Positions 23,210 to 56,727 of a stretch of DNA of 64,000 bases are shown here, one piece after another. Source of the DNA: Ascidiaceihabitans donghaensis (lineage in GTDB: Bacteria > Pseudomonadota > Alphaproteobacteria > Rhodobacterales > Rhodobacteraceae); contig NZ_OMOR01000001.1 of the NCBI RefSeq assembly GCF_900302465.1, forward strand, positions 310,001 to 374,000, in the 5' to 3' direction. Under the pieces are notes generated by a model. It did no database searches, was not told the DNA's origin, and worked only from the letters and a program-made list of their open reading frames with translations. Positions within the stretch are counted from its first letter, which is position 1, and each line of letters begins with the position of its first letter. The position numbers were made by a program, and so were the translations under genes.

Positions 23210-24511
23210 TCAGGTCAGGGTTTTCAGGGTCTCTAACACAGTTTTCGCATCGGTCTCGGGATTGACGATACAAAGCCTGAAAACCATCTCGCCGCGCCAT
23301 TTTGTCGGCAAACACAGCAGGGCACCGGAACGGCGGTGCTCTTCGGCCCATCGGACCATGGCGTCCTCGGACATGTGTGACGGACGGAACAGAACCACGG
23401 ACAATTGCGGTCCAAGCAGCAGATCCAGCCCTTCTATGCGTTCGATACCCTGCGCAATGTCGCGTGCAATCGATATCGTTGTCGCGATCGCATCGCCGTA
23501 AGCTTGGGTGCCATGCGTGGCCAAAGAATACCAGAACGGCAGCCCACGGGCGCGACGCGTCAAGTGCAGCGCATAGTCGGAAGGGTTCCAGTGCGTTTTG
23601 TCCACAGTATCAAGATAGACCGCGCTTTGGCCGTGGGCGTTGGCGGCATCCGCGGCGTTGCGGTAGATCAATGCACAGCTGTCGTAGGGTGCAAACAGCC
23701 ATTTGTGCGGATCAACGATCAGGCTGTGCGCCCGGTCAATTCCGTCGAATATCGGTCGCGTTTCAGGATCTGCAATGGCTGCAAGGCCGTAAGCCCCGTC
23801 AAGATGCAACCAAAGGTCACGTGCCTCGGCAAGGTCAGCCAACCCCTGAATGTCATCAACCGCGCCGCTGTTGGTTGCGCCTGCGTTGGCGACGATTGCA
23901 AAGACATTTGGTTGCCATGCATCGCGCGCAGCCTGCGCATTCATCCGTCCTGTGGCGTCCGCTGCGACCGGAATCACATCGACGTCCATCACACTGGCCG
24001 CCGCCTCAATAGAACTATGCGCCTCAGCCGAACACAGAATGGCCCAACGGTCAGGGCGGGCGCAGCGTCTGGATTTCCAATCGCGGGCCGCGTGCAAAGC
24101 GCACAGGTTTCCAAGCGTTCCGCCCGCTACAAAAACACCACCGGCTTGCGCGTCCCAGCCGGCCAATTCTGCCAGCCAGTCCAGCGCTTGGTTTTCGGCG
24201 TGAATGGCCCCCGCACCACCATCCCAATTGCCTGCAAAAATACCTGCCGCCCCAAGAGCTGCATCAAAACTAAGCGACGCTTGGCTGGGGGCCGAGGCCA
24301 CAAAGCTTAGCGATGTCGGGTGCCCGAAAGGACGTGTTGAGGGCACAATCGTATCGGTGAACAGGCCAAAAGCGGCCTCTGCACCGATCCCGTCTGGCGT
24401 GATCGAACCGCCCAGAATTGGCTCAAGGACCGCGTTGCTTTGCGCCCCATGTTTGGGGTCTTGTCCACCCAGAATGCGCGTGCGCGTCCATGTCAGGATG
24501 TCCGTCACCAT
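23210..24511 (-). CDS. PLP-dependent group II decarboxylase
   Basis: The start at 24511 gives 433 residues beginning MVTDILTWTRTRILGG. The PLP-binding lysine is in VDPHKWLFAPYD, the conserved His of the cofactor stack is in AEAHSSIEAA, and the Asp is in LWLHLDGAYG. The family covers aromatic amino acid, glutamate and diaminobutyrate decarboxylases; the substrate cannot be decided here. The gene follows the dimethylamine dehydrogenase-like gene by 26 bp. That suggests a joint catabolic route in which an amino acid-derived amine is made or consumed. Confidence 0.85.
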   Translation of the reverse strand: MVTDILTWTRTRILGGQDPKHGAQSNAVLEPILGGSITPDGIGAEAAFGLFTDTIVPSTRPFGHPTSLSFVASAPSQASLSFDAALGAAGIFAGNWDGGAGAIHAENQALDWLAELAGWDAQAGGVFVAGGTLGNLCALHAARDWKSRRCARPDRWAILCSAEAHSSIEAAASVMDVDVIPVAADATGRMNAQAARDAWQPNVFAIVANAGATNSGAVDDIQGLADLAEARDLWLHLDGAYGLAAIADPETRPIFDGIDRAHSLIVDPHKWLFAPYDSCALIYRNAADAANAHGQSAVYLDTVDKTHWNPSDYALHLTRRARGLPFWYSLATHGTQAYGDAIATTISIARDIAQGIERIEGLDLLLGPQLSVVLFRPSHMSEDAMVRWAEEHRRSGALLCLPTKWRGEMVFRLCIVNPETDAKTVLETLKTLT

Positions 24512-24537: not shown

Positions 24538-26607
24538 TCAATCTACGGCCAACTCTGTGATTTCTCGGCGAAATGGCAGCGCGTCGCCGATGTCTTCCCC
24601 ATCCAGTTCCCGCGCATAGCGGTGGCCTGCGTAAGTGGCCCAAGCAATCGGCCCCGGTGCATTCGCATCGCCAATCAGTTTGACTGATTTGATACCCGCG
24701 TCGGCCCATTCTGCCTCGCGCGTTTTCAGGTCGTTATAGACGGCGTTGTTTTCCAAGCGCGAGGACACAAGCAGAATCCCGTCACATTCCAGCGGACGGG
24801 TTTGGTCGGTGAACATGCAATTGGTCACAACATGATCCGATGCGATTTCGACCACGCCGCGGTTCAGTTCAATCTGCACGCCCATCTCAGCCAAACGGCG
24901 ATGGATTTCATGTTGTTCAAGCGTGTTGAGCGTCCATTCACTGACGTAAGCGGCGGGGGTGACCAAAGTGACGGTACAGCCTTTCTGGATCAGTAGTTCT
25001 GCCATGACGCCGCCCATATAATAGTGGTCATCGTCATAGATCACCACATGCCCGCTTGGGGATGCGCCGTCCATCAGATCATCTGGCGTGAACAGTGGCA
25101 TTGCGACGTCCGTCGGAAACGGGACCACATGTTGGCGCGAAACACCGTCGCGGCGCCACTGCGATCCTGTGGCGATACAGACGTTTTCAAAGCCGAACTC
25201 AAGGATGCTATCTGCATCGAGTTCACTGTCGAAATAGCGTTCCACATTTGGCTTTTGGCTGATCTGGTATTCACGGTAATCGGCCACGCGACCCCAAGCG
25301 CTAAGCCCAGGAAGCATGCGCTCGCGCGCGACGCGGCCCCCTAAAACGGTGCCCGCTTCGGCCAATGCGACGTCATAGCCGCGCATCGCAGCCGCGCGTG
25401 TTGCTTCAAGTCCCGCAGGTCCAGCACCCACCACCAACACATTGGAACTGTTGCCTTTTGTGTTCATTCGTTCGGGGTGCCACCCTTTGCGCCATTCTTC
25501 CATGAACGTCGGGTTTTGGGTGCAGCGGCTGATCGACATGGTCATGTCACCGGTCACACATATGTTGCAGCCGATACATTCGCGGATGTCGTCGATGCGG
25601 CCCTCTTCGATCTTTTTGGGCAAAAACGGATCTGCAATTGACGGACGTGCGCAGCCGATGAAATCAAGCGTGCCTGTCTTGATCATTTTTGCCATCACAT
25701 CGGGGCTGGTGAAGCGACCAACGCCGACAATGGGCTTGTCCGTCAGCGCGTGGATGCCTTGAACCAGCGCATGCTGTGCCGCCTCTTCCTTAAAGCGCGA
25801 CGGGCCGGAACATTCTTCCCATGTGCCCTGTGCCAAATCCCAAAGGTCAGGCAGGTTGCGGTTCATATCGACAAATTCGCGCACCTCGGCGTTGGAAAAT
25901 CCAAGCTGCCCGATGGTTTCGTCCAAAGACACCCGCAAGGTGATTCCCATGGTATCGCCCACCGCATCGCGCACATCGGCGATGACCTCGTTCACAAACC
26001 GTGCGCGGTTTTCAAGGCTGCCACCGTATTCATCCGTCCGGTGGTTGGTGGCGCGGCTGAGGAAGTGTTGGAAAATTCCGAATCCATGCGCGCCATAAAG
26101 GCAAATCAGATCAAAGCCTGCGTTCCGGGATCGCTTTGCGGCATTCACGAACCACCGGCGCAGATCGCGGATGTCTGTCTTGTCTAGGGCACGCGCCTGA
26201 ACCGGATCATTGGTGAAGGTGCGGATGGGCTGGGCAGAGACCGCCAAGGGGACTTCTTTGGTGTAAAGGTTCGGGCCGTTCACGCCGGAATACGCCAGTT
26301 GAATTCCCGCAAGTGCGCCATGCGATTTCATGGCGTCTGACATCTTGCGCAACATGGGGATGTCTTTGTCTTCCCACAGGCGCAATTCGATGAACGGTGT
26401 GATTTCGGAGGTGTGGTGCATCTCGCATTGTTCGGTGAAAATCACACCCCAACCGCCTTCGGCTTTGGACCCGCGCATCGCGGCCGCCGCAGACGGATCG
26501 CGATATCCGCCACCGTTGCAATGGGGCACCTGATAAAACCGGTTTTTGGCGGTGACAGGCCCAATGTCCATCGGCTCAAATAGGATGTCGTAGCGGGGAT
26601 CACGCAC
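24538..26607 (-). CDS. Dimethylamine/trimethylamine dehydrogenase-family iron-sulfur flavoprotein
   Basis: The GTG start has AGGAG upstream and gives 689 residues. The N-terminal half is an Old-Yellow-Enzyme-type FMN barrel. Cys30 (YQVPHC) corresponds to the cysteine that covalently holds FMN in trimethylamine dehydrogenase. Tyr-Gly-Ala-His (the Y169/H172 pair) is kept. A 4Fe-4S cluster is formed by Cys344, Cys347, Cys350 and a later Cys. The C-terminal half has a nucleotide fold (VLVVGAGPAGLEA). The substrate bowl differs: Gln60 as in dimethylamine dehydrogenase, Asp354 in place of the third aromatic residue, and Cys where Asp267 would be. It oxidatively demethylates or deaminates some amine other than trimethylamine. 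Confidence 0.88.
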   Translation of the reverse strand: MRDPRYDILFEPMDIGPVTAKNRFYQVPHCNGGGYRDPSAAAAMRGSKAEGGWGVIFTEQCEMHHTSEITPFIELRLWEDKDIPMLRKMSDAMKSHGALAGIQLAYSGVNGPNLYTKEVPLAVSAQPIRTFTNDPVQARALDKTDIRDLRRWFVNAAKRSRNAGFDLICLYGAHGFGIFQHFLSRATNHRTDEYGGSLENRARFVNEVIADVRDAVGDTMGITLRVSLDETIGQLGFSNAEVREFVDMNRNLPDLWDLAQGTWEECSGPSRFKEEAAQHALVQGIHALTDKPIVGVGRFTSPDVMAKMIKTGTLDFIGCARPSIADPFLPKKIEEGRIDDIRECIGCNICVTGDMTMSISRCTQNPTFMEEWRKGWHPERMNTKGNSSNVLVVGAGPAGLEATRAAAMRGYDVALAEAGTVLGGRVARERMLPGLSAWGRVADYREYQISQKPNVERYFDSELDADSILEFGFENVCIATGSQWRRDGVSRQHVVPFPTDVAMPLFTPDDLMDGASPSGHVVIYDDDHYYMGGVMAELLIQKGCTVTLVTPAAYVSEWTLNTLEQHEIHRRLAEMGVQIELNRGVVEIASDHVVTNCMFTDQTRPLECDGILLVSSRLENNAVYNDLKTREAEWADAGIKSVKLIGDANAPGPIAWATYAGHRYARELDGEDIGDALPFRREITELAVD

Positions 26608-26713: not shown

Positions 26714-27643
26714 TTACGACGCAGGGACACCGGGGTATCCCCATTTCGAGATCGACTGCGTTGCGTGATCAATGAAGGCATCCACGGATAAAACCGACCG
26801 TGCGCCGTGCGGGATCACGAACCCCAATCGCATAGGGCGGTGTGTGCCTTCCAATGGAATAAACCGCAATTCGCGCCCGTCAGGCGACAGGTCGGAATGG
26901 GGCCGGATGTTGGCCATGGAAAATCCGAAACCATTGGCCACCAATGACCGCATTACCGCCATATCGCGAGTCCGTTCCACGATTTTCGGGGCGACAGATG
27001 CCTGTTCAAAAATGCTAAGGAAATAGGTGCTGCTGATCGGCAGATCGAGCAAAACCATTGGATGATCCGCCAACATTTTGACCGAGACGGATTTGTGGTC
27101 TGCCAAAGGATGATACCCCGACACGACCGCATACAACGGCAGTGAGCGAACAGGGATGAACTCCAGATCAGGCGGAATTTCCAGATCATACGTTAAGGCC
27201 ACGTCAATTTCAGCGCATCTGAGCTTTTCGATCAGTGTCTCTTGGTCACATTCAAATTGCGAAACCTGTACGTCGGAATGAGCGTCTTGAAACCTGCGCC
27301 GGATTGCGGGCAACAACACCTGCACAAACGTCAAAAGGCAGCCGACATTCAGCGGGCCTTGCACGTTGCCCGATATGGTGCCCGCAAGCCGATTAAGACC
27401 TTCGGCCTCGTTCAGAACCCTGCGTGCCTGATCCATGAATTGCCGGCCTGCCTGCGTCAGGCTTAGGCCGTGGGCGTGTTTGCGTACAAAAAGCGGCAGG
27501 CCAAATTCAGCCTCTAACTGGGTGATCGCAGCCGAGATCGAGGGCGAAGACACGTTCACCATCGCACTTGCTTGCGCAATGGACCCCTGTTCGCCGACAG
27601 AGACGAAGTATTCCAATTGCCGCAATGTGAACCGTGATGCCAT
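26714..27643 (-). CDS. LysR-family transcriptional regulator
   Basis: The 309-residue protein has the N-terminal winged HTH (LRQLEYFVSVGEQGSIAQAS, SSPSISAAITQLE) and the two-lobe effector domain (DVALTYDLEIPPD, NGFGFSMANIR). It sits between the DUF1028 gene and the dehydrogenase gene on the same strand. Its effector is probably an amine intermediate of the pathway, by context only. Confidence 0.92.
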   Translation of the reverse strand: MASRFTLRQLEYFVSVGEQGSIAQASAMVNVSSPSISAAITQLEAEFGLPLFVRKHAHGLSLTQAGRQFMDQARRVLNEAEGLNRLAGTISGNVQGPLNVGCLLTFVQVLLPAIRRRFQDAHSDVQVSQFECDQETLIEKLRCAEIDVALTYDLEIPPDLEFIPVRSLPLYAVVSGYHPLADHKSVSVKMLADHPMVLLDLPISSTYFLSIFEQASVAPKIVERTRDMAVMRSLVANGFGFSMANIRPHSDLSPDGRELRFIPLEGTHRPMRLGFVIPHGARSVLSVDAFIDHATQSISKWGYPGVPAS

Positions 27644-27748: not shown

Positions 27749-28423
27749 CTATTCGTCACCGGGGACGCCATAAGAAGGCGCCTCGCGAGGGTCAATTGCG
27801 CGTTGCACATAGGCGTCCAGTTGGGGCTTGTAGATTTCCCAAGCCGTTGCGACATTTTCGATTGGACAGGTTTCTGTCCAATCGCAGCGCAAATCCGCCA
27901 CGGGCCACGCGACCTTGTCCACTAACAGCATTCCAGCGGAATGAAGCGGCCCCGCTTCGCCACCCTGTGCCAGCCCCGCACGCATCGCGGCAATCAGGCG
28001 ATCTCCAAGATGCCCCGTGGACGCAAGAAACCCGTCCACAACCGCCTGCGGCACACCGTCGTTGGCCAACATGTTGCCGCCAGACGCCACATCCTGCGCT
28101 TGCGCTTGTGTCCAAATGCCAAGGGAATTCGGGCCGGAATGGATGGCTGTGGCGCCTGTTTTATCGACCGCCAGGACCTGACGGTATTCGATGAACTTTC
28201 CTTGCGATTGTACGGCTGCGATGGCCTCTGGCGCAGTCATCCCTTCGGCCATCAGATCAAGCGCCAATGGCCCCAGCGTTGGGTCCGTCACATTCTGTGA
28301 GGCGACGGCGCCAACGCCTGCGCGGGCATAGGCACATCGTGCCGCAACGGCAGGGGAAGAGGATGAAATCGCCAGACCAAACATGCCAGTCTCGGCGCAG
28401 CGTGCAACGAGGGAAAAGGTCAT
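27749..28423 (-). CDS. DUF1028 Ntn-hydrolase-like protein
   Basis: The 224-residue protein starts MTFSLVARCAETGMFGLAISSSSPAVAARC, which defines the DUF1028 family. The fold is predicted to resemble N-terminal nucleophile hydrolases, but the activity is not established. Its start overlaps the ridA stop by four bases (ATGA), so it is translated with RidA. DUF1028 genes often accompany amine, amino acid or pyrimidine catabolism genes; here the neighbours are a RidA and a flavin monooxygenase. Confidence 0.87.
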   Translation of the reverse strand: MTFSLVARCAETGMFGLAISSSSPAVAARCAYARAGVGAVASQNVTDPTLGPLALDLMAEGMTAPEAIAAVQSQGKFIEYRQVLAVDKTGATAIHSGPNSLGIWTQAQAQDVASGGNMLANDGVPQAVVDGFLASTGHLGDRLIAAMRAGLAQGGEAGPLHSAGMLLVDKVAWPVADLRCDWTETCPIENVATAWEIYKPQLDAYVQRAIDPREAPSYGVPGDE

Positions 28424-28836
28424 GCGGGGATCACCGCCGTGCCGTCAATTTCGACCAGCCATTCGGGCCGCGCGAGGGCCTGCACAACCAAACCTGTCGA
28501 CACCGGATGCACGCCTTTGATGTATTCCCCCATGGTGCGATAAACGGCTTCGCGGTGGCGCACGTCGGTGATGTAGACCACGACTTTGACAAGGTGCTCC
28601 ATCTCGCCGCCCGCTTCTTCGATCAGCTGTTTGATATTTTGCATGACTTTATGCGTCTGCTCGACTGGATCGTTGCTGGTGATGTTCACTGCGTCATCCA
28701 AATTCTGTGGACATTGGCCACGCAGCCAGACGGTCTTTCCGCCTTCCGTGACAACCGCTTGGCACAGATCATTGTCGAGGTTCTGTTCGGGATAGGTGTC
28801 CGAAGTGTTGAATTTGCGAATGCGGGTATGGGCCAT
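28420..28836 (-). CDS. ridA: RidA/YjgF-family protein
   Basis: The ATG at 28836, with AGGAA upstream, gives 138 residues. The RidA core is visible (VWLRGQCPQNLD, VKVVVYITDVRHREAVY, GLVVQALARPEWLVEIDGTAV). The Arg in LARPEWLVE corresponds to the substrate-binding region. RidA proteins hydrolyse reactive enamine or imine intermediates such as 2-aminoacrylate. In this cluster it may deal with imines released by the amine-oxidising flavoenzymes. It is 16 bp after the monooxygenase gene. Confidence 0.88.
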   Translation of the reverse strand: MAHTRIRKFNTSDTYPEQNLDNDLCQAVVTEGGKTVWLRGQCPQNLDDAVNITSNDPVEQTHKVMQNIKQLIEEAGGEMEHLVKVVVYITDVRHREAVYRTMGEYIKGVHPVSTGLVVQALARPEWLVEIDGTAVIPA

Positions 28837-28852
28837 TTGGACGTTCCTATAG

Positions 28853-30130
28853 TTATTCTGCGGCGGGGCGCACGATTTCAGCGGCACCACGATAATCGGC
28901 GTAGGCGCGTTGAATGCCAATCTGGTCTGCGACAAATTTTGCATCATGCCAGACACCCCAAAGAAAGGTCGATCCACGCCGTGACTGCCACGGCAGACCC
29001 AGAAAATAGACGCCGGGTTCTTTAGATACGCCGCGTTGGTGGATGGGCGCGCCTTTGTCATCAAAGGCATCGACCTTAAGCCAGCCGAAATCCTGTTTGT
29101 ATCCGGTTGCCCAAATGATCGTCGTGATACCCTCTGCCGCCAGATCAAGACTGCCGATGGGATCACTTAGGCTTGCCGGATCAGAGAACACCTCGCGTGC
29201 TTCTGGTTCTGGAGGCAGGTCAAGGCCCATTTGCGTCACGTAAGCATCTGCCGCATCCAACAGATCAAGGTAATTTTCGTCACCCGCTGCAACATTTTCC
29301 TTTAGGTCATCCGCAAATGAAAGCGTGCCGTCCGCATATTTGTCAGTAAGACCAAGAAGCGTCACGCCTTCGTGTCCAAGGCGGCGGAAATCCATGGTGC
29401 GACCTCCATATGCACCACTGACCGAGATCGTCACATGTTCGGTGCCGGGTTCTTGGGCGGCAAGATCCCATAATCCCAAAACACCCAACCACCACACAAA
29501 ATCGCGCCCGCGATAGCGGCGCGGTGGGCGGTCGTGTGGGCCAACGGACAAAAACACGTTGCGCCCCGCCCTGTTCAATTCATCCGCAATCTGCGCCCCG
29601 GACGATCCGGCCCCAACGACCATAACCGCCCCTGCATCAAGTTGGTCGGGGTTGCGGTAGTCGGCGGAATGTATCTGTGTCACCGGCGCGGCAGCTGGGA
29701 CAATCGGTGGGATCACCGGATGTTGAAATGCGCCCGTTGCAGATACGATGCGCGCAGCCTCGATCACGCCATTTGTGGTCTCGACGCGAAATCCGGCACG
29801 ATCGGGCAAGCGTTCGGCCTTGATCACTTCCACACCCGTTCGCACAGGCGCGTCCACCATCGCCGCATATTCTTCGATGTAGTCGGCGACGCGATCTTTG
29901 CCGACGAATTCATCAGGTGCGTTGCCGTTAAATTCCATGTTGGGGAACCGATCGTGCCAGACAGGGCCGTTTGTCACCAAAGCGTCCCACCGCGACGTAC
30001 GCCAGGCCTCGGCGATGCGATCTTTTTCAAGCACTAGAAACGGGACGCCCTGTTTGCCCAGATGTTCACACAGCGCAATTCCCGCTTGCCCCGCCCCAAC
30101 AACAAGCGTGTCTATGGTTTCAACTGGCAT
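28853..30130 (-). CDS. Flavin-containing monooxygenase-like protein
   Basis: The ATG at 30130, preceded by GGGGGGA, gives 425 residues; 30175 is a weaker start. The FAD-binding motif is VVGAGQAGIALCEHLG, and the NADPH-binding motif is VMVVGAGSSGAQIADEL. The ATGYKQDFGW segment is typical of class B flavin monooxygenases. The FMO identity box is only partly matched, so N-oxygenation, S-oxygenation and Baeyer-Villiger activity are all possible. It heads the operon with ridA and DUF1028. Confidence 0.85.
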   Translation of the reverse strand: MPVETIDTLVVGAGQAGIALCEHLGKQGVPFLVLEKDRIAEAWRTSRWDALVTNGPVWHDRFPNMEFNGNAPDEFVGKDRVADYIEEYAAMVDAPVRTGVEVIKAERLPDRAGFRVETTNGVIEAARIVSATGAFQHPVIPPIVPAAAPVTQIHSADYRNPDQLDAGAVMVVGAGSSGAQIADELNRAGRNVFLSVGPHDRPPRRYRGRDFVWWLGVLGLWDLAAQEPGTEHVTISVSGAYGGRTMDFRRLGHEGVTLLGLTDKYADGTLSFADDLKENVAAGDENYLDLLDAADAYVTQMGLDLPPEPEAREVFSDPASLSDPIGSLDLAAEGITTIIWATGYKQDFGWLKVDAFDDKGAPIHQRGVSKEPGVYFLGLPWQSRRGSTFLWGVWHDAKFVADQIGIQRAYADYRGAAEIVRPAAE

Positions 30131-30373: not shown

Positions 30374-30412
30374 CTGTGCATGCTGGGTTCCTTACAATGC
30401 TGGGGGACACCA

Positions 30413-31504
30413 ATGCAGGACACTGCGGAAATTGCGGTTGATGTGCGCGGCGCGGTCAAGCGCTACGGAAGTTTCACCGCCCTGCAAAAAATTTCGCTTG
30501 GCATACGGGACAATGAATTTTTCACCCTTTTGGGTCCCTCTGGCTGTGGGAAAACCACACTGCTACGCATGATTGCGGGTTTTGAAGACGTCACAGAAGG
30601 CGGGATTTTTCTGTTTGGCGACGAGATCGCGAAACTGGCGCCAAACCAGCGCCCCGTGAATACGGTGTTTCAGAACTACGCGCTGTTTCCGCATATGACG
30701 ATCCTTGATAACGTGGGGTTCGGCCTTGAGATGAAAGGCGCCTCGCGATCGGATGCGCGTAAACGTGCCGGAGAGATGCTTGAGCTGGTCCAACTGACGC
30801 AATTCGCCCACCGCAAACCGGCGCAACTGTCGGGTGGTCAACAGCAGCGTGTTGCCTTGGCCCGCGCCTTGGCCCCATCCCCCAAAGTTTTGCTGCTGGA
30901 TGAGCCGTTGTCCGCGCTTGATCTGAAGCTGCGCAAGGCCATGCAGATTGAACTGAAACACATTCAACGCGAGACCGGCATTACCTTTATTTTTGTGACC
31001 CACGATCAGGAAGAAGCGCTGACCATGTCCGACAGGATTGCGGTTATGTCTGCGGGTGAATTGCAACAACTTGGCGCACCGCGTGATATTTACGAACACC
31101 CGCGCAACATGTTTGTGGCGGATTTCATCGGCGACACGAACCTTCTGGAGGTGTCCGTCGACAAGATCACCGACGGGCGCGCCCTGTGTTCCATTGGTGG
31201 GGCCAACACGCTGAGCTGCATGGCGGTGGACGGGGTGGATGTGGGTGCAAAAGTGCATTTGTCTGTACGCCCCGAACGGTTGACGCTGTCGGACAGCGCA
31301 CTGTCACCCGAAAGCCTGCCCGGAAAAGTCGTTGAGAATATTTTCATCGGCACCGACATCAATACGATCATCGACCTTGATGATGGCCCGCAGTTTACGA
31401 TCCGCACCTCTAATTCGGACCGTGGCAACAAGCGGATTATCGACATCGGCAGTCCCGCCTTCGTCAATATGGAAGCAGGTGCTGCGCGCCTGTTGGTTGA
31501 TTAA
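30413..31504 (+). CDS. potA: Polyamine ABC transporter ATPase
   Basis: The ATG at 30413, with GGGGGA upstream, gives 363 residues. The ATPase motifs are canonical: GPSGCGKTT, LSGGQQQRVALARAL, LLLDEPLSALD and VTHDQEEALT. A TOBE regulatory domain follows at the C-terminus. It starts a potABCD operon that imports putrescine, spermidine or a related amine. Its stop overlaps the potB start (TAATG). Confidence 0.9.
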   Translation: MQDTAEIAVDVRGAVKRYGSFTALQKISLGIRDNEFFTLLGPSGCGKTTLLRMIAGFEDVTEGGIFLFGDEIAKLAPNQRPVNTVFQNYALFPHMTILDNVGFGLEMKGASRSDARKRAGEMLELVQLTQFAHRKPAQLSGGQQQRVALARALAPSPKVLLLDEPLSALDLKLRKAMQIELKHIQRETGITFIFVTHDQEEALTMSDRIAVMSAGELQQLGAPRDIYEHPRNMFVADFIGDTNLLEVSVDKITDGRALCSIGGANTLSCMAVDGVDVGAKVHLSVRPERLTLSDSALSPESLPGKVVENIFIGTDINTIIDLDDGPQFTIRTSNSDRGNKRIIDIGSPAFVNMEAGAARLLVD

Positions 31505-32430
31505 TGGCAGGGGGTGCTGCATCGGGCGGGTCATCCGCGTCAGATACTTACGCAAAGGCGCGACACTGGTTGCTGTTGCCGTCTTGGGTCGTGCTGGGGG
31601 TCTTTGTCTTTGCACCTGTCTGCGTGATGTTGATCTATTCGTTCCTGACAAAAGAATTTCGTGGCGGCGTCATTTGGGAACCCTCGCTGGCCGCCTATGA
31701 TCAGTTCTTTTTTGACCGCGGGTTGTTTGGCGACAGCGATCCAACCCTCCAATGGACCTATATCAGTATCTTCTGGCGCTCGATCTGGCAGGCGGGTCTT
31801 GCGACAATTCTTTCACTGCTGATCGGATTTCCAACCGCCTATTTTATTGCGACGCGCCCAGAAAAAACCCGTGCCCTATGGGTGTTTTTGATCACAATTC
31901 CTTATTGGGTGAACTTGCTGATCCGCACGGTTTCGATGAAATTCCTGCTGCGCGATGAAGGGCCAATGAACGATTTCCTCATCAGCGCAGGGCTGATCGA
32001 TGACCCGCTGCGCATCATCAACACCAACCTCGCTGTGCAACTGGGACTGTTTTACAGCTATTTGCCGTTTATGGTTCTGCCAATTTACGCCGCCGTTGAG
32101 CGCTATAACTTTACCATGAGCGAGGCCGCCGCAGACCTTTACGCCTCAAAATTCACCACCCTGCGCCGCATCGTTTTGCCTGCTGTGAAACCCGGTGTGA
32201 TTGCGGGCTGCATTCTGGTTTTTGTACCCAGCCTCGGCGCGTTTCTGGCCCCTGATCTATTGGGCGGTGCCAAAACATTCATGATCGGTTCACTGATTGA
32301 AGAGCAGTTCAAAGGCAACGCTGGCAACTGGCCGTTTGGGGCCGCCGCCTCGATGATCCTGCTGACAATGGTAATGGTTGTCCTGTTGCTCTTTGCCCGT
32401 CAGCAACGCCAGGCAGGGGGGCAGGCATGA
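31504..32430 (+). CDS. potB: Polyamine ABC transporter permease PotB
   Basis: The 308-residue permease has six membrane helices and the EAA loop ([25 protein letters not shown]). It carries an N-terminal polar extension ([16 protein letters not shown]). It overlaps potA by one base and potC by four bases, so the genes are translationally coupled. Confidence 0.9.
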
Positions 32431-33233
32431 GCGACAACACAGATGTCAAAACCTACGCGGGCTTCAAAGCGATGACGGTGCTGTGCCTTGTCATCCTTTA
32501 TGCGCCGCTGGCTGTGGTGACGATCTATTCTTTTAACGCCTCTGCCTCGATCACGGTCTGGGAAGGGCTGTCGCTGCGCTGGTATGTCGATGTGTTTGTT
32601 GGGCCGGAAAGCGCCAAATTCCAGAAAGCGGCGATAAATTCGTTCTCGATTGCGATCATCGCGGCCACGGCGGCCACCGCCATCGCGACCGCTGCGGCGA
32701 CTGCGATTGTACGGGGTGGCAAATACAAATTGCGCACGCCCTCGCTGGGATTGATCACGTTGCCGATCATGGTGCCTGAAATCGTGCTGGCTGTGGCGAC
32801 GTTGATTTTCTTCAATTCCGTGGGTTTCACACGCGGCTATATGACGATCCTTGTGGCGCATATCGCGTTTTGCATCCCCTTTGCCTATCTGCCCATTCAA
32901 GCGCGGATGCAGGGGATTGAGGACACCTATGAACATGCTGCGATGGACCTTTATGCGACGCGCGCACAAGCTTTCCGGCGCATTCTTTTACCTTTGATGA
33001 TGCCCGGCATTATCTCGGGGTTTTTGCTGGCGTTCATTGTCAGCCTCGACGATTTCATCATCACCAATTTTGTCAAAGGTGCCGGGATTGAGACCTTGCC
33101 GACGGCGATTTTCGGGTCGGTGAAACAGGGTTTGAAACCCAACATCATGGCTATCTCGACGATGCTGCTGGGCCTCTCAATCGTGATGGTGACGATATCA
33201 TACTTCGTATCAAAAACAGACAATACAAAATGA
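32427..33233 (+). CDS. potC: Polyamine ABC transporter permease PotC
   Basis: The 268-residue permease has six helices and the EAA loop ([25 protein letters not shown]). It pairs with PotB to form the membrane channel. It lies 19 bp ahead of the binding-protein gene. Confidence 0.9.
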
Positions 33234-33252
33234 CAACAAGGGAGCTAAACAC

Positions 33253-34281
33253 ATGAAATACCTAACAACATCCGCTATGGCCTTAGCGCTGATGGCAAAT
33301 GCCGCCGCAGCTGACGGTGATCTGGTGATCTATCACTGGTTTGAATACATGCCAGCGGAACTGCTGGAAAAATTCACAGCTGAAACCGGCATCAACGTGA
33401 CAATGGACACCTACGATTCCAACGAGGCGATGCTTGCCTCGCTGAAAGCCGGCGGCATGGGCACTTATGACGTCGCCGTGCCGGGCGATTACATGGTGGC
33501 GATCATGGCGGGCGAAGGGTTGCTGGATACGATTGCAGACGGCGAGCTGTCCAACAAAGGCAACATCGCAGCTGAATGGGCAGATCCGTCGTTTGATCCG
33601 GGCCGCACACATTCCATTCCCTATCAGTGGGGCTCCACGTCCTTTGCCGTCGATACGGCCGCCTATGATGGTGACATCAACACAACCGACTTGCTGTTCA
33701 ACCCACCAGCCGAACTGGCAGGCAAGATCAACATGCTAGACAGTCAAGGCGAAGTCATGGCGCTTGCCTCGCTGCATATGGGTATTCCGCAATGTTCGTC
33801 AGACCGGGCCCAACTGAGCGCGTTGAACGATATGCTGCAAGGCGCGAAAGCGAACTGGGCGTCGTTTAATTCAGATACAGCGCGCGAAGTGCTTGTGTCC
33901 GGTGACGCATCCGTTGGCATGATCTATGACGGTTTCAGCGCTAAGGCACGCGCAGAACGCGACACGATCAAATACGCCTTCCCGACACAAGGCTATGTCG
34001 TGTGGATGGACAATGTTGTTCTTCTGAACGACGCCCCAAACCGTGAAAACGCGGTAAAGTTCATGGATTTCCTGCTTGAGCCTGAAAACATCTCGGCTGT
34101 GTCCAACTATGCGCGGTATGGCTTGGGCGTGTCGGGCGCGGAGGAATTCCTTGATCCGGCATTGGCCACATTGCCAGAAGCAAATCCGCCTGCCACGGCT
34201 GGCGCTGGTGCGTTTATCGAAGTGTGCGATCAAGAAACCCAAGCGGTTTACGACCAAATCTGGACCAACCTGAAAAACTGA
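33253..34281 (+). CDS. potD: Polyamine-binding periplasmic protein, PotD/PotF class
   Basis: The 342-residue protein has a signal peptide ending NAAAADG. The mature start is VIYHWFEYMPAELLEKF, and YDVAVPGDYMVAIM follows, as in PotD/PotF. Acidic and aromatic residues in the cleft (GYVVWMDNVVLLND) suit a cationic diamine ligand. The exact polyamine is not determinable. The operon partner downstream is an acetylpolyamine amidohydrolase, which hints at acetylated or modified polyamines. Confidence 0.9.
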   Translation: MKYLTTSAMALALMANAAAADGDLVIYHWFEYMPAELLEKFTAETGINVTMDTYDSNEAMLASLKAGGMGTYDVAVPGDYMVAIMAGEGLLDTIADGELSNKGNIAAEWADPSFDPGRTHSIPYQWGSTSFAVDTAAYDGDINTTDLLFNPPAELAGKINMLDSQGEVMALASLHMGIPQCSSDRAQLSALNDMLQGAKANWASFNSDTAREVLVSGDASVGMIYDGFSAKARAERDTIKYAFPTQGYVVWMDNVVLLNDAPNRENAVKFMDFLLEPENISAVSNYARYGLGVSGAEEFLDPALATLPEANPPATAGAGAFIEVCDQETQAVYDQIWTNLKN

Positions 34282-34350: not shown

Positions 34351-35391
34351 ATGGAAACGATTTTCAGCGAAAAGCACAGGCTTCGAAATTCAAAGACCGA
34401 GCTGTTTGGCGGCGAACTGGTCGAACCGTTCGAGCGCCCGTCGCGTGCGGAATACATCATCGACCGGGTCCGCGCCGTGAACCTTGGCCCGGTATCTGAG
34501 CCCGACGACTTTGGCATGGACCCGATCTTGGCCATTCACGACAAAGGGTTCATCGATTTTTTGCTAACCGCTTGGACCGATTGGCAGGCCGAAGGCTTCA
34601 AAGGCGAAGCAATGCCCACCGTTTGGCCGGCGCGGCGTATGTCGACCCACATTCCAAATCACATCGAAGGGCGTTTGGGCTATTACGCGCTGGCCTGTGA
34701 AACAACCATTTCAGATGGCACATGGGAAGCCGCATACGCCGCGGCGCAGGTGGCGCTGACGGGTGCGGAACGTGTTTCTGCGGGCGCACCTGCGGCCTTT
34801 GCCCTGTGCCGTCCGCCGGGGCATCACGCCGCCATCGATATGTATGGCGGCTACTGCTTTGTGAACAATGCAGCCGTCGCGGCGCAGCATCTGCTGGACA
34901 AAGGCGCTAAACGCATCGCTGTTCTGGACGTGGATTTTCATCACGGCAACGGAACACAGGACATCTTTGACGCCCGCGATGATGTGTTGTTTGTCTCGTT
35001 GCATGGCGACCCGATGGACGCCTTTCCGCATTTTCTGGGTCACGCCGATGAAACGGGAACCGGCAAGGGCGAGAGCTTTACGATCAACTATCCTTTGCCT
35101 CCGAACACCGATTTTGCAACGTGGCGGGCAGCTTTGGCCAAAGCGCTGGTACACATCAAAGATTACGCCCCCGATGCTCTGATTGTCTCGCTTGGGGTGG
35201 ATACATTTGAAACCGACCCGATCAGCTTTTTCAAACTGCAATCAGAGGATTTCAGCACATACGGGGCCGACATCGCGGGCCTTGGGCTGCCGACATTGTT
35301 TGTCATGGAAGGCGGCTATGACATTGAAGAGATCGGCATAAACACAGTGAATGTCTTGCAAGGGTTCGAGCAGGCAAATGGAGGTCGTTGA
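34351..35391 (+). CDS. aphA: Acetylpolyamine amidohydrolase (histone deacetylase family)
   Basis: The ATG at 34351 gives 346 residues. The class II HDAC-like active site is complete: CRPPGHHAA (two catalytic His), GYCFVNNAAVAA, DVDFHHGNGTQ (zinc Asp and His), GVDTFETDP (zinc Asp) and GGYDIEEIG. Such enzymes remove acetyl groups from acetylputrescine, acetylspermidine or similar amines. It follows the polyamine importer, which suggests uptake and deacetylation of acetylated amines as nutrients. Confidence 0.9.
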   Translation: METIFSEKHRLRNSKTELFGGELVEPFERPSRAEYIIDRVRAVNLGPVSEPDDFGMDPILAIHDKGFIDFLLTAWTDWQAEGFKGEAMPTVWPARRMSTHIPNHIEGRLGYYALACETTISDGTWEAAYAAAQVALTGAERVSAGAPAAFALCRPPGHHAAIDMYGGYCFVNNAAVAAQHLLDKGAKRIAVLDVDFHHGNGTQDIFDARDDVLFVSLHGDPMDAFPHFLGHADETGTGKGESFTINYPLPPNTDFATWRAALAKALVHIKDYAPDALIVSLGVDTFETDPISFFKLQSEDFSTYGADIAGLGLPTLFVMEGGYDIEEIGINTVNVLQGFEQANGGR

Positions 35392-54663: not shown

Positions 54664-56727
54664 TTACCGGCCCGGTGTTGGGTCAGCCGCTGTGAGCGTC
54701 CCATCGCTGCGGATTTTGACAGCTTTGACTTTGCCCATTGCACTGGGGTCCGCGCCTGTCAGCAACGCGTCTGGCAATCTGCGTTCCACCAGCAGCGGCA
54801 CTGTCATTTCCACGTTTTCTTCCGCATGATATGCCATCATTTGTTCGCGTAGAATGCCGATGGTGATCGCTTCGCCCAGAAGTGCCGATTCAATATAGTC
54901 GGTGTAGAAATGCACCCCACCGATGTTACGCGCATTCGAGATGTTCCAAATCAGCTTGTTCAGCTCGCCTTCCAGGGTCAGACCTTTTTCCATGGGCAGC
55001 GCCAAAGCATCAATCGTGACGTCTTCGGGGGACGCAGCGCAATCCGGAACCAGGGCTTGGTCCTTGGGCTTCACCAGATACGCTGGTGACTTTGGGTTCT
55101 TGTGATCGGACATGTTGAAAAAGGCTTTTAACAAAGTCACACACGCCCCGGCGACTGTCGCATGCCCCGCGCCATATGCGGGATGCATGGGTGACCCTTC
55201 CGGGAAAGCCATCGGCAGCAGCCACGTTGTATCCCCACAGTTTTTCTCGTTGTGCAGGCGCACTTCGGTCAGGATTTTGTCCAGCGCAGGGTCTGACCCT
55301 TGCGATGTGCCATCACTTGCATATGGATGGGTGTAAGGCGCGATCAGGCTGGCCATTTGGTGGCGGGCCAAGCATTCAGCGGATGTCCCGGTTGCGTCAT
55401 AAGGCGATGTTCCGGGCAAATCGCGGTGCGGGTGGTATTCCGTGAAAACGGTGTGAAACAGGGCAGCGGCTGCTTCCGGGCGCAAACGGCGGTGCACCGT
55501 AAACTTTTGCAAGCGTACCGCTTTTAACGCACGGCTCGACACTTCGGTGACCAACGTCAACAGATGCGGGCCACCAAACAAGGCAAACGGTTCGCGGTTA
55601 TTGCGTGATAAGGCATTGGCAGACGCGCCATGAAATGGGATGCCGGAATCAAAAGCAAACTTTTCATCCAGTAAAATCAACGCTGCATTCAGATATGCCT
55701 GATACAGTTGATCATCGTGCACATATGTGGCCATGTCGCGTAAGCTTGACATTCTACGTCGTGCCCCAGGGATAAATTCCGACGCAAGGGGGCGGACATT
55801 GGCCCCGTTCTGCACGTCGATATAATCGGCCCATTTCATCATGTAATCGGTTTCAGGTTTCGCCACGCGGACCTTTTGGTCGATGCTTTGTGCGCCATAG
55901 GCGATGGTGCCTGATGCGCGCTTTTTCAGGTCTCGTGTGCATCCGCCTGATCCCATAAACATCAATTGCGACAAGAATGGAGTGTGCCAGCTGTCTTCGC
56001 CTTCACCGCGAAATATATTGGATGGTGTCTGTTTTTTACCAAACCGGCGCCGGTCGCGTTGGGCGGCGTCCGCAGTATCGTTGAGCGCGTCGCGGCCTTT
56101 AAACCAGCGTAGGTGGCTAAGTGTGTCTGCAGCGTCTTTGGCCTTGGCATTGCATGAGGTGATCCGTTTGGCTGCGGCAGCAGACAATTTTTTGCCACCC
56201 AAGGTGGTTAACGCACCCACCAGTTCAGTGCTCATTAATGACGCAACGCCCCATTCGCGGCCCAGTGCCATTTGGTAAACCTCCGCAATCTCCGCCGCGA
56301 ATTCTGCTGATCCCGCTTCCGGGGCGGGGGGCATTGTCATGGCGCCAGGGTCGGGGCCCTCAAAGACAAAGGCATGCCCGGCCGTGGGGCTTTCCCACTG
56401 ACGATAAGGCGACCGATCCGCTTCGCAGTCCAGCGCTGCATGTGCGTTTGGATCAACGGTTAAAAAAGGCCCGCGGTGCGGGCTGACGGCGGCAAAAACG
56501 TTGGGATCATGTGTTTGGGTGCCTTTCGCAAAGTCACGATAATCCTGTTCGTTTTTCAGCAATCCGTTTTCACCATGAGACAAGCCTTTGGTGAAATTGA
56601 ACAGGAACGGTTCTTTGGGGTCATTGTTGGGGCGATGCACGGGATGGGGCATGCTTGTCGACAATTTGGTTGCTTTGTTTCGGGTGTGTTTGGCCGCTTT
56701 GTGGCGATTGGGTTCATGATAGGTCAT
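54664..56727 (-). CDS. Vanadium-dependent haloperoxidase, algal/cyanobacterial bromoperoxidase type
   Basis: The 687-residue enzyme starts at the ATG with AGAGGA upstream. The vanadate site is visible: Lys408 and Arg416 (KFTVHRRLRPEA, eight residues apart as in algal enzymes), His522 (HPAYGAGHATVAGA), and Arg600 and His606 (NARNIGGVHF, six apart). The serine that normally precedes Gly-His is Ala520. There is no signal peptide. It would oxidise bromide or iodide with hydrogen peroxide. A perfect palindrome about 130 bp upstream may be its operator. Confidence 0.88.
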   Translation of the reverse strand: MTYHEPNRHKAAKHTRNKATKLSTSMPHPVHRPNNDPKEPFLFNFTKGLSHGENGLLKNEQDYRDFAKGTQTHDPNVFAAVSPHRGPFLTVDPNAHAALDCEADRSPYRQWESPTAGHAFVFEGPDPGAMTMPPAPEAGSAEFAAEIAEVYQMALGREWGVASLMSTELVGALTTLGGKKLSAAAAKRITSCNAKAKDAADTLSHLRWFKGRDALNDTADAAQRDRRRFGKKQTPSNIFRGEGEDSWHTPFLSQLMFMGSGGCTRDLKKRASGTIAYGAQSIDQKVRVAKPETDYMMKWADYIDVQNGANVRPLASEFIPGARRRMSSLRDMATYVHDDQLYQAYLNAALILLDEKFAFDSGIPFHGASANALSRNNREPFALFGGPHLLTLVTEVSSRALKAVRLQKFTVHRRLRPEAAAALFHTVFTEYHPHRDLPGTSPYDATGTSAECLARHQMASLIAPYTHPYASDGTSQGSDPALDKILTEVRLHNEKNCGDTTWLLPMAFPEGSPMHPAYGAGHATVAGACVTLLKAFFNMSDHKNPKSPAYLVKPKDQALVPDCAASPEDVTIDALALPMEKGLTLEGELNKLIWNISNARNIGGVHFYTDYIESALLGEAITIGILREQMMAYHAEENVEMTVPLLVERRLPDALLTGADPSAMGKVKAVKIRSDGTLTAADPTPGR

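Follow-up and report, generated by a model that had tools for sequence, protein, structure and literature searches.

Trimethylamine dehydrogenase (TMADH) passes electrons by way of a 4Fe-4S cluster to an electron-transfer flavoprotein (ETF). Histamine dehydrogenases (HDHs) belong to the same family, and solved representatives come from Rhizobium sp. (PDB 6DE6) and Nocardioides simplex (PDB 3K30). In the available portion of the study of the Rhizobium enzyme, Gln65, Trp267 and Asp358 are given as pocket residues of N. simplex HDH, and Asp354 as one of Rhizobium HDH (PMC10180351). Nine positions of the latter were mutated: Gln60, Ile69, Phe72, Asn110, Tyr171, Phe176, Trp263, Asp265 and Asp354. 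As reported there, every active clone was unsubstituted at Tyr171, Phe176, Trp263, Asp265 and Asp354, while Gln60 and Ile69 were intermediate and Phe72 and Asn110 tolerant to substitution. The same text gives rates relative to histamine of 10% for agmatine and 13% for 1,3-diaminopropane with the Rhizobium enzyme, and of 30% for putrescine with that of N. simplex.

The available text of PMC10180351 also equates Asp265 of Rhizobium HDH structurally with N. simplex Asp270, and cites work by Tsutsumi et al. in which Tyr180, Gly268 and Asp269 of N. simplex HDH were mutated. The mutations altered redox potential and kinetics as well as substrate inhibition. The wording 'Phe180, Asp269, and Cys269' is taken here as Phe180, Asp268 and Cys269, a Rhizobium-like motif. 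The cited mutants include an Asp to Cys exchange.

Histamine metabolism of another kind is encoded by the hin genes of Pseudomonas putida U and P. aeruginosa, whose hinFLHG enzymes convert imidazole acetate to aspartate according to the accessible parts of two papers (PMC6467879, PMC8231116). These parts describe P. putida HinF as an FAD monooxygenase (EC 1.14.13.5), HinL as an enamine deaminase, HinH and HinG as amidases and HinD as an aldehyde dehydrogenase (PMC6467879). Accessions AWA45229, AWA45230 and AWA45227 belong to P. putida HinF, HinL and HinH, respectively. HinK is a LysR regulator (PMC8231116), HinC an aminotransferase and HinI an aspartate ammonia-lyase (PMC6467879, PMC8231116).

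The window analysed here is a 64,000-nucleotide stretch of the Ascidiaceihabitans donghaensis genome (contig NZ_OMOR01000001.1, positions 310,001 to 374,000). One of its genes is best explained as encoding an HDH that belongs to a histamine-to-aspartate pathway. We hold this joint claim to be right with a probability of roughly nine in ten; homology, pocket residues, gene order and co-occurrence are what the analysis shows. The gene and the codons discussed below, which were located by alignment and placed by computation from the reading frame, are as follows.

24538-26607, reverse strand: probable HDH of the TMADH family, a 689-residue open reading frame with a GTG start
26518-26520, reverse strand: codon of Cys30, to which FMN is expected to be attached
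26428-26430, reverse strand: codon of Gln60 (Tyr60 in TMADH, Gln65 in N. simplex HDH)
25810-25821, reverse strand: codons of Trp263-Glu264-Glu265-Cys266
25546-25548, reverse strand: codon of Asp354 (Asp358 in N. simplex HDH)

The best match in a PDB-wide sequence search is 6DE6 (1251.6 bits), which aligns over residues 1-686 and hence the whole length of the protein; 3K30 is second (811 bits). PDB 6L6J, whose partner in the tree is a protein from a Shinella plasmid with the annotation 6-hydroxypseudooxynicotine oxidase, scores 647 bits and lies between 3K30 and TMADH (1DJN, 537 bits). Identity is 86% to 6DE6 (382 residues compared) and 56% to 3K30 (376 residues). A tree was built from 58 selected rows, and several of its outer branches are long. 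In it, the 29-row clade of the window protein includes 6DE6 (support 99) and a 44-row clade of Gln60 proteins includes 3K30 (support 99), although the branch of 3K30 is long and its own placement loose. The protein therefore resembles the characterised HDHs along its whole length and groups with them rather than with TMADH. An NCBIfam search with the enzyme gave no model above its cut-off. A structure prediction made with 25 homologues was set aside, its mean pLDDT being 63.8 with much of the pocket region below 50.

The alignment shows the cofactor and pocket residues that a first-pass annotation of this DNA had listed. The Cys expected to carry 6-S-cysteinyl FMN (Cys30), Gln60, the Tyr171-His174 pair, Trp263 (Trp264 of TMADH), Cys266 (opposite Asp267 of TMADH) and Asp354 are all present, as are the four expected 4Fe-4S cysteines at 344, 347, 350 and 362. 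Compared with 6DE6, the window protein is the same at Cys30, Gln60, Ile69, Phe72, Glu74, Asn110, Tyr171, His174, Phe176, Trp263, Cys266 and Asp354, and differs at residue 265, where it has Glu and 6DE6 has Asp. It thus matches Rhizobium HDH at eight of the nine positions listed as mutated in the available text, 265 being the exception. The residues common to both solved HDHs (Gln60, Ile69, Phe72, Glu74, Asn110, Tyr171, Trp263 and Asp354) are all found in it, whereas 3K30 departs from it in having Asp270 in place of Cys266 and Tyr181 in place of Phe176.

Among the best 80 of at least 577 homologues from a scan of genome_contigs, Gln60, Ile69, Glu74, Asn110, Tyr171, His174, Phe176, Trp263, Cys266 and Asp354 are each identical in 80 of 80, which excludes a chance occurrence of the pocket residues. 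Rows outside the Gln60 clade have Glu, Tyr, Leu or Ala at position 60, and never have Phe at 72 or Asn at 110. Asp354 is also found beyond this clade and so is no family mark by itself. Judged from these sequences, the pocket is an ordinary HDH pocket. The earlier suggestion of a 're-made' substrate bowl has to be given up, since 6DE6 and 3K30 have the same one.

Two other early proposals survive in part. Asp354 is present and corresponds to a known HDH pocket residue, but to say that Trp355 has become an Asp is inexact: TMADH Trp355 faces a one-residue gap beside Asp354, and Asp354 itself faces TMADH Glu356. That Asp354 lines the pocket is concluded from the published N. simplex and Rhizobium residues, not from the TMADH alignment. 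The acidic wall does suit a substrate that carries a further basic group, and it fits histamine, which is the expected substrate; agmatine, 1,3-diaminopropane and putrescine are side substrates that known HDHs oxidize more slowly, by the rates available from PMC10180351.

TMADH shares with the window protein its family, Cys30 for FMN, the Tyr-His pair, the 4Fe-4S cysteines and Trp264. Its aromatic bowl of Tyr60, Trp264 and Trp355 is not preserved: Tyr60 and Asp267 are replaced, nothing stands opposite Trp355, and a three-residue insertion before Trp264 is missing. A di- or trimethylamine dehydrogenase with an altered bowl would come from the same family and could have Gln60, which we take to resemble dimethylamine dehydrogenase and which is not diagnostic. 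We consider such an enzyme extremely improbable given the differences from TMADH at 60, 69, 72, 74 and 110, the gap opposite Trp355 and the distance from TMADH in the tree. The first reading of the gene as a TMADH-family dehydrogenase unlikely to act on trimethylamine agrees with this.

The genes that surround the putative HDH gene recall the hin pathway. In the list below, counts refer to 80 related loci at an identity of at least 35%; 16 of these loci are shorter than 20 kb.

23210-24511, reverse strand: PLP-dependent decarboxylase of 433 residues, 26 bases beyond the stop codon of HDH (7 of 80 loci)
26714-27643, reverse strand: LysR-type regulator, candidate HinK-like (Pfam; a LysR gene in 71 of 80)
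27749-28423, reverse strand: DUF1028 protein, candidate HinH-like hydrolase (Pfam; 65 of 80)
28420-28836, reverse strand: RidA-family protein, candidate HinL-like enamine deaminase (Pfam; 66 of 80)
28853-30130, reverse strand: flavin monooxygenase (FMO), candidate HinF-like imidazoleacetate 4-monooxygenase (family search, co-occurrence; 67 of 80)
30380-34281, forward strand: PotABCD-like ABC transporter with ATPase, two permeases and binding protein, candidate histamine importer
34351-35391, forward strand: histone-deacetylase (HDAC)-superfamily protein adjoining the transporter, with the first ATG of the frame chosen by eye as its start (11 of 80)

The monooxygenase, RidA, DUF1028, LysR, HDH and decarboxylase genes run in one direction and the importer is divergent. 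The ATPase and binding protein of the importer were assigned by family search and the permeases by their likeness to annotated relatives. At low similarity, the decarboxylase comes closest in the PDB to 4obu (pyridoxal-dependent decarboxylase) and 2qma (L-2,4-diaminobutyrate decarboxylase); this protein may be a histidine decarboxylase.

Matched by role and order, the cluster shares with the partly available descriptions of the hin pathway a monooxygenase, a RidA enamine deaminase, amidases, an aldehyde dehydrogenase (ALDH) and a LysR regulator. It differs in that HDH replaces the HinC aminotransferase, an ABC importer replaces the HinA permease, and the ALDH and ArgE genes lie outside the window cluster. 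Three of the four kinds of hin-type gene (monooxygenase, enamine deaminase and one amidase) are adjacent in the window and an ArgE-like gene is on contig C2, as matched by role and not by Hin sequences. The gene-by-gene Hin assignments, which follow from operon order and role names, are accordingly those of candidates.

The importer most resembles polyamine importers in the family search, which counts against histamine. An alternative is a polyamine or diamine dehydrogenase that acts on putrescine, agmatine, 1,3-diaminopropane or spermidine through an HDH pocket, its substrates being supplied by the PotABCD-like importer and the adjoining HDAC-like amidohydrolase. The side activities of known HDHs in the available text of PMC10180351 are in keeping with this idea. 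It is nevertheless improbable: the pocket equals that of two histamine dehydrogenases, the HDAC-like gene is present in few of the related loci, and the monooxygenase, RidA and DUF1028 neighbours suit imidazole breakdown. To our knowledge these three have no part in the breakdown of polyamines.

The order seen in related loci is FMO-RidA-DUF1028-(ALDH)-LysR-HDH-(ArgE). An ArgE-like gene is present in 64 of the 80, an ALDH gene in 42, and the importer genes potA, potB, potC and potD in 56, 57, 57 and 47, respectively. Leisingera is one example of a culturable relative whose cluster is complete. Under stricter limits, FMO, RidA, DUF1028, ALDH and ArgE are found together in 32 of 80 loci, and at least four of these five in 54. 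A single stretch of NZ_CP049040.1 carries ETF, aspartate ammonia-lyase, FMO, RidA, DUF1028, ALDH, HDH, argE, LysR, an HpaB-like gene and the importer. The FMO-RidA-DUF1028-argE unit lies about 9 kb from HDH in Ideonella, and is found with no adjoining HDH on one Klebsiella and one Caballeronia plasmid.

Several other arrangements were seen in these loci. HpaB-like flavin-dependent monooxygenases occur in or near the HDH cluster in 10 of 80 (L012, L014, L022, L031, L052 = L097, L055, L058, L070, L079 and L080), and one type of Rieske oxygenase occurs in 13 of 80. On the Klebsiella plasmid (L098, 3822-12498), the FMO-RidA-DUF1028-argE unit adjoins ALDH, GMC oxidoreductase and cytosine-type permease genes. 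The part of the plasmid examined contains no HDH, and its genes may represent a different entry into the same pathway. One fragment of a viral contig is among the matches. All seven loci with the decarboxylase, like the window, show no cluster ALDH (Fisher p 0.005 without the window). We do not claim a link between the two features, as the tree offers only five independent pairs on supported branches and the sign test is not significant (median p 0.5).

Co-occurrence was assessed in 296 genomes of the family, which represent different genera but are related by descent. A close HDH (at least 66% identity), in one case fragmentary, is encoded by 49 of them. Counted at E values up to 1e-120, the monooxygenase accompanies it in 48 of these 49, compared to 37 of the 247 others (Fisher p ~1e-30, for genomes that are not independent by descent), and in 37 of the 49 both genes are on one contig within 12 kb. 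Two observations count against the pathway. Three distant Gln60 members at 55-57% identity (G024, G065 and G290) come from genomes of which only one has the monooxygenase. Within the genus of the window, the gene is found in one of 12 genomes, eight of which are less than 90% complete.

A search for ALDH and ArgE genes beside the window HDH found neither, and this also weighs against the pathway. The nearest relatives in the same genome (50% identical for ALDH, 51% for ArgE) are both on contig C2, which is probably a circular replicon; its ArgE-like gene is split across the ends of the contig. In the region concerned (L106 20-3941 and the end of L105), this gene adjoins another LysR gene and a pair of Rieske oxygenase genes with relatives inside the HDH loci of other genomes. 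Our guess is that N-methylated imidazole compounds may enter by way of these oxygenases. The genome has a single high-identity copy of HDH itself, the other matches being 25-34% identical apart from one short stretch. DUF1028 has a single match, and the monooxygenase is present in a single copy plus a weak 26% match. The ETF alpha gene at C1:3263121 is 79% identical to that of NZ_CP049040.1.

We infer the enzyme's substrate in A. donghaensis, its electron acceptor, and the chemistry and order of the later steps, as follows. Histamine would enter the TMADH-type pocket, where its imidazole end may be held by Gln60, Trp263 and the acidic Asp354 and Glu74 while the primary amine is oxidized at the FMN expected on Cys30. 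Electrons would pass to the 4Fe-4S cluster and from there to the electron-transfer flavoprotein. The predicted products are ammonia and imidazole acetaldehyde, which an aldehyde dehydrogenase would convert to imidazole acetate. The HinF-like monooxygenase would attack the ring of the latter, RidA (HinL-like) and the DUF1028 protein (HinH-like) may process the product, and an ArgE-like deacylase (HinG-like, perhaps the copy encoded on C2) would release aspartate.

At the active-site positions compared, the window protein departs from the Rhizobium enzyme in the region of the third triad residue. Residues 263-266 read W-E-E-C in the window protein, W-E-D-C in Rhizobium HDH, W-E-G-D in N. simplex HDH and W-G-E-D in TMADH, where the stretch ends in Asp267. 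By sequence, Cys266 faces N. simplex Asp270 and residue 265 faces Gly269. The full alignment bears out the early observation of a Cys at the Asp267 position. Cys266 is found in all 98 rows of a Rhizobium-type set (the 80 genome_contigs homologues, 17 further members and the window protein), and these sequences mark it as a subfamily trait. It resembles the Asp to Cys exchange of the N. simplex mutants of Tsutsumi et al., as they are cited in the available text of PMC10180351.

Residue 265 is more variable. It is Asp in 76, Glu in three and His in one of the best 80 of at least 577 homologues, and Asp in 82, Ala in seven, Glu in six and Asn, Gln and His in one each of the 98 rows, with at least ten changes by parsimony on a FastTree tree. 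The His265 reading is that of Roseisalinus antarcticus (L053 10001-12067), which has a stop at codon 6 and represents either a broken gene or a sequence error. The window protein has Glu265 in place of the Asp265 of Rhizobium HDH. This Asp does not define the family because N. simplex HDH has Gly there and its Asp one place later by sequence.

Glu265 does sit where substitution of Asp gave no active clone in the available account of Rhizobium HDH, and this counts against an HDH. One could take it, together with the ALDH and ArgE genes that are not beside HDH, as a sign of decay, the protein being of HDH origin but inactive or drifting. Such decay is quite unlikely. The frame is open from end to end, the remaining residues of the active site and for cofactor binding are intact, and five other rows of the 98 have Glu265 and seven Ala265. 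Moreover, cluster ALDH is unseen in 39 of 80 related loci at an identity of at least 55% (41 of 80 by another filter), some of which end at contig ends.

A ten-row subclade, in which seven members have Ala265 and the other three have Gln, Asn and Glu, respectively, also speaks against decay. All ten genomes retain the monooxygenase somewhere (three readings carry one in-frame stop), in three within about 10.5 kb of HDH and in seven elsewhere. Since all keep this gene, an acid at 265 seems, on sequence grounds, to be dispensable for retention of the HDH gene in such genomes, unlike the mutagenesis result as far as that source was available. In three loci of this subclade that were read with their flanks, monooxygenase, RidA and DUF1028 genes are all missing up to a distance of about 8 kb from HDH, which counts against the pathway. 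A transporter binding protein is present near HDH in these three loci, ALDH in two of them and a carbon-nitrogen hydrolase in one. We tentatively suggest, at somewhat less than even odds, that Rhizobium-type HDHs have moved the triad. Fixed Cys266 would replace TMADH Asp267 while residue 265 was exchanged at least ten times (Asp, Glu, Ala, Asn and Gln), so that a subclade that keeps the monooxygenase mostly lacks an acid at either place and another group would assist amine oxidation.

Two other parts of the window drew attention. The 687-residue protein of 54664-56727 has no Pfam or NCBIfam match, and motifs like those of vanadium haloperoxidases are suspected in it by eye. The segment 35947-40981 looks like an iron-uptake-type cluster, with Imelysin and di-haem oxidoreductase genes followed by what appear by eye to be a second imelysin and a DUF1513-like protein.

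What began as a puzzling pocket can now be given an enzyme name, a likely substrate and a likely pathway: the protein is probably a new HDH of an already known type in a histamine-to-aspartate cluster. The natural variation at 265 makes the role of the third triad residue testable in the HDH class, and the relatives collected here are candidates for histamine test kits, in which HDHs are already used. Two points of interest remain, namely the free variation at 265 next to an invariant Cys266 and the hin pathway in its dehydrogenase form, as seen in Rhodobacterales and their relatives. A literature search turned up no paper on an HDH version of a hin-type cluster among the matches listed, from a library that covers few subscription journals. 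The enzyme probably lets A. donghaensis use histamine as food, and, judging by its distribution, roughly one genus in six of the family (49 of 296 genomes) may degrade histamine by the dehydrogenase route.
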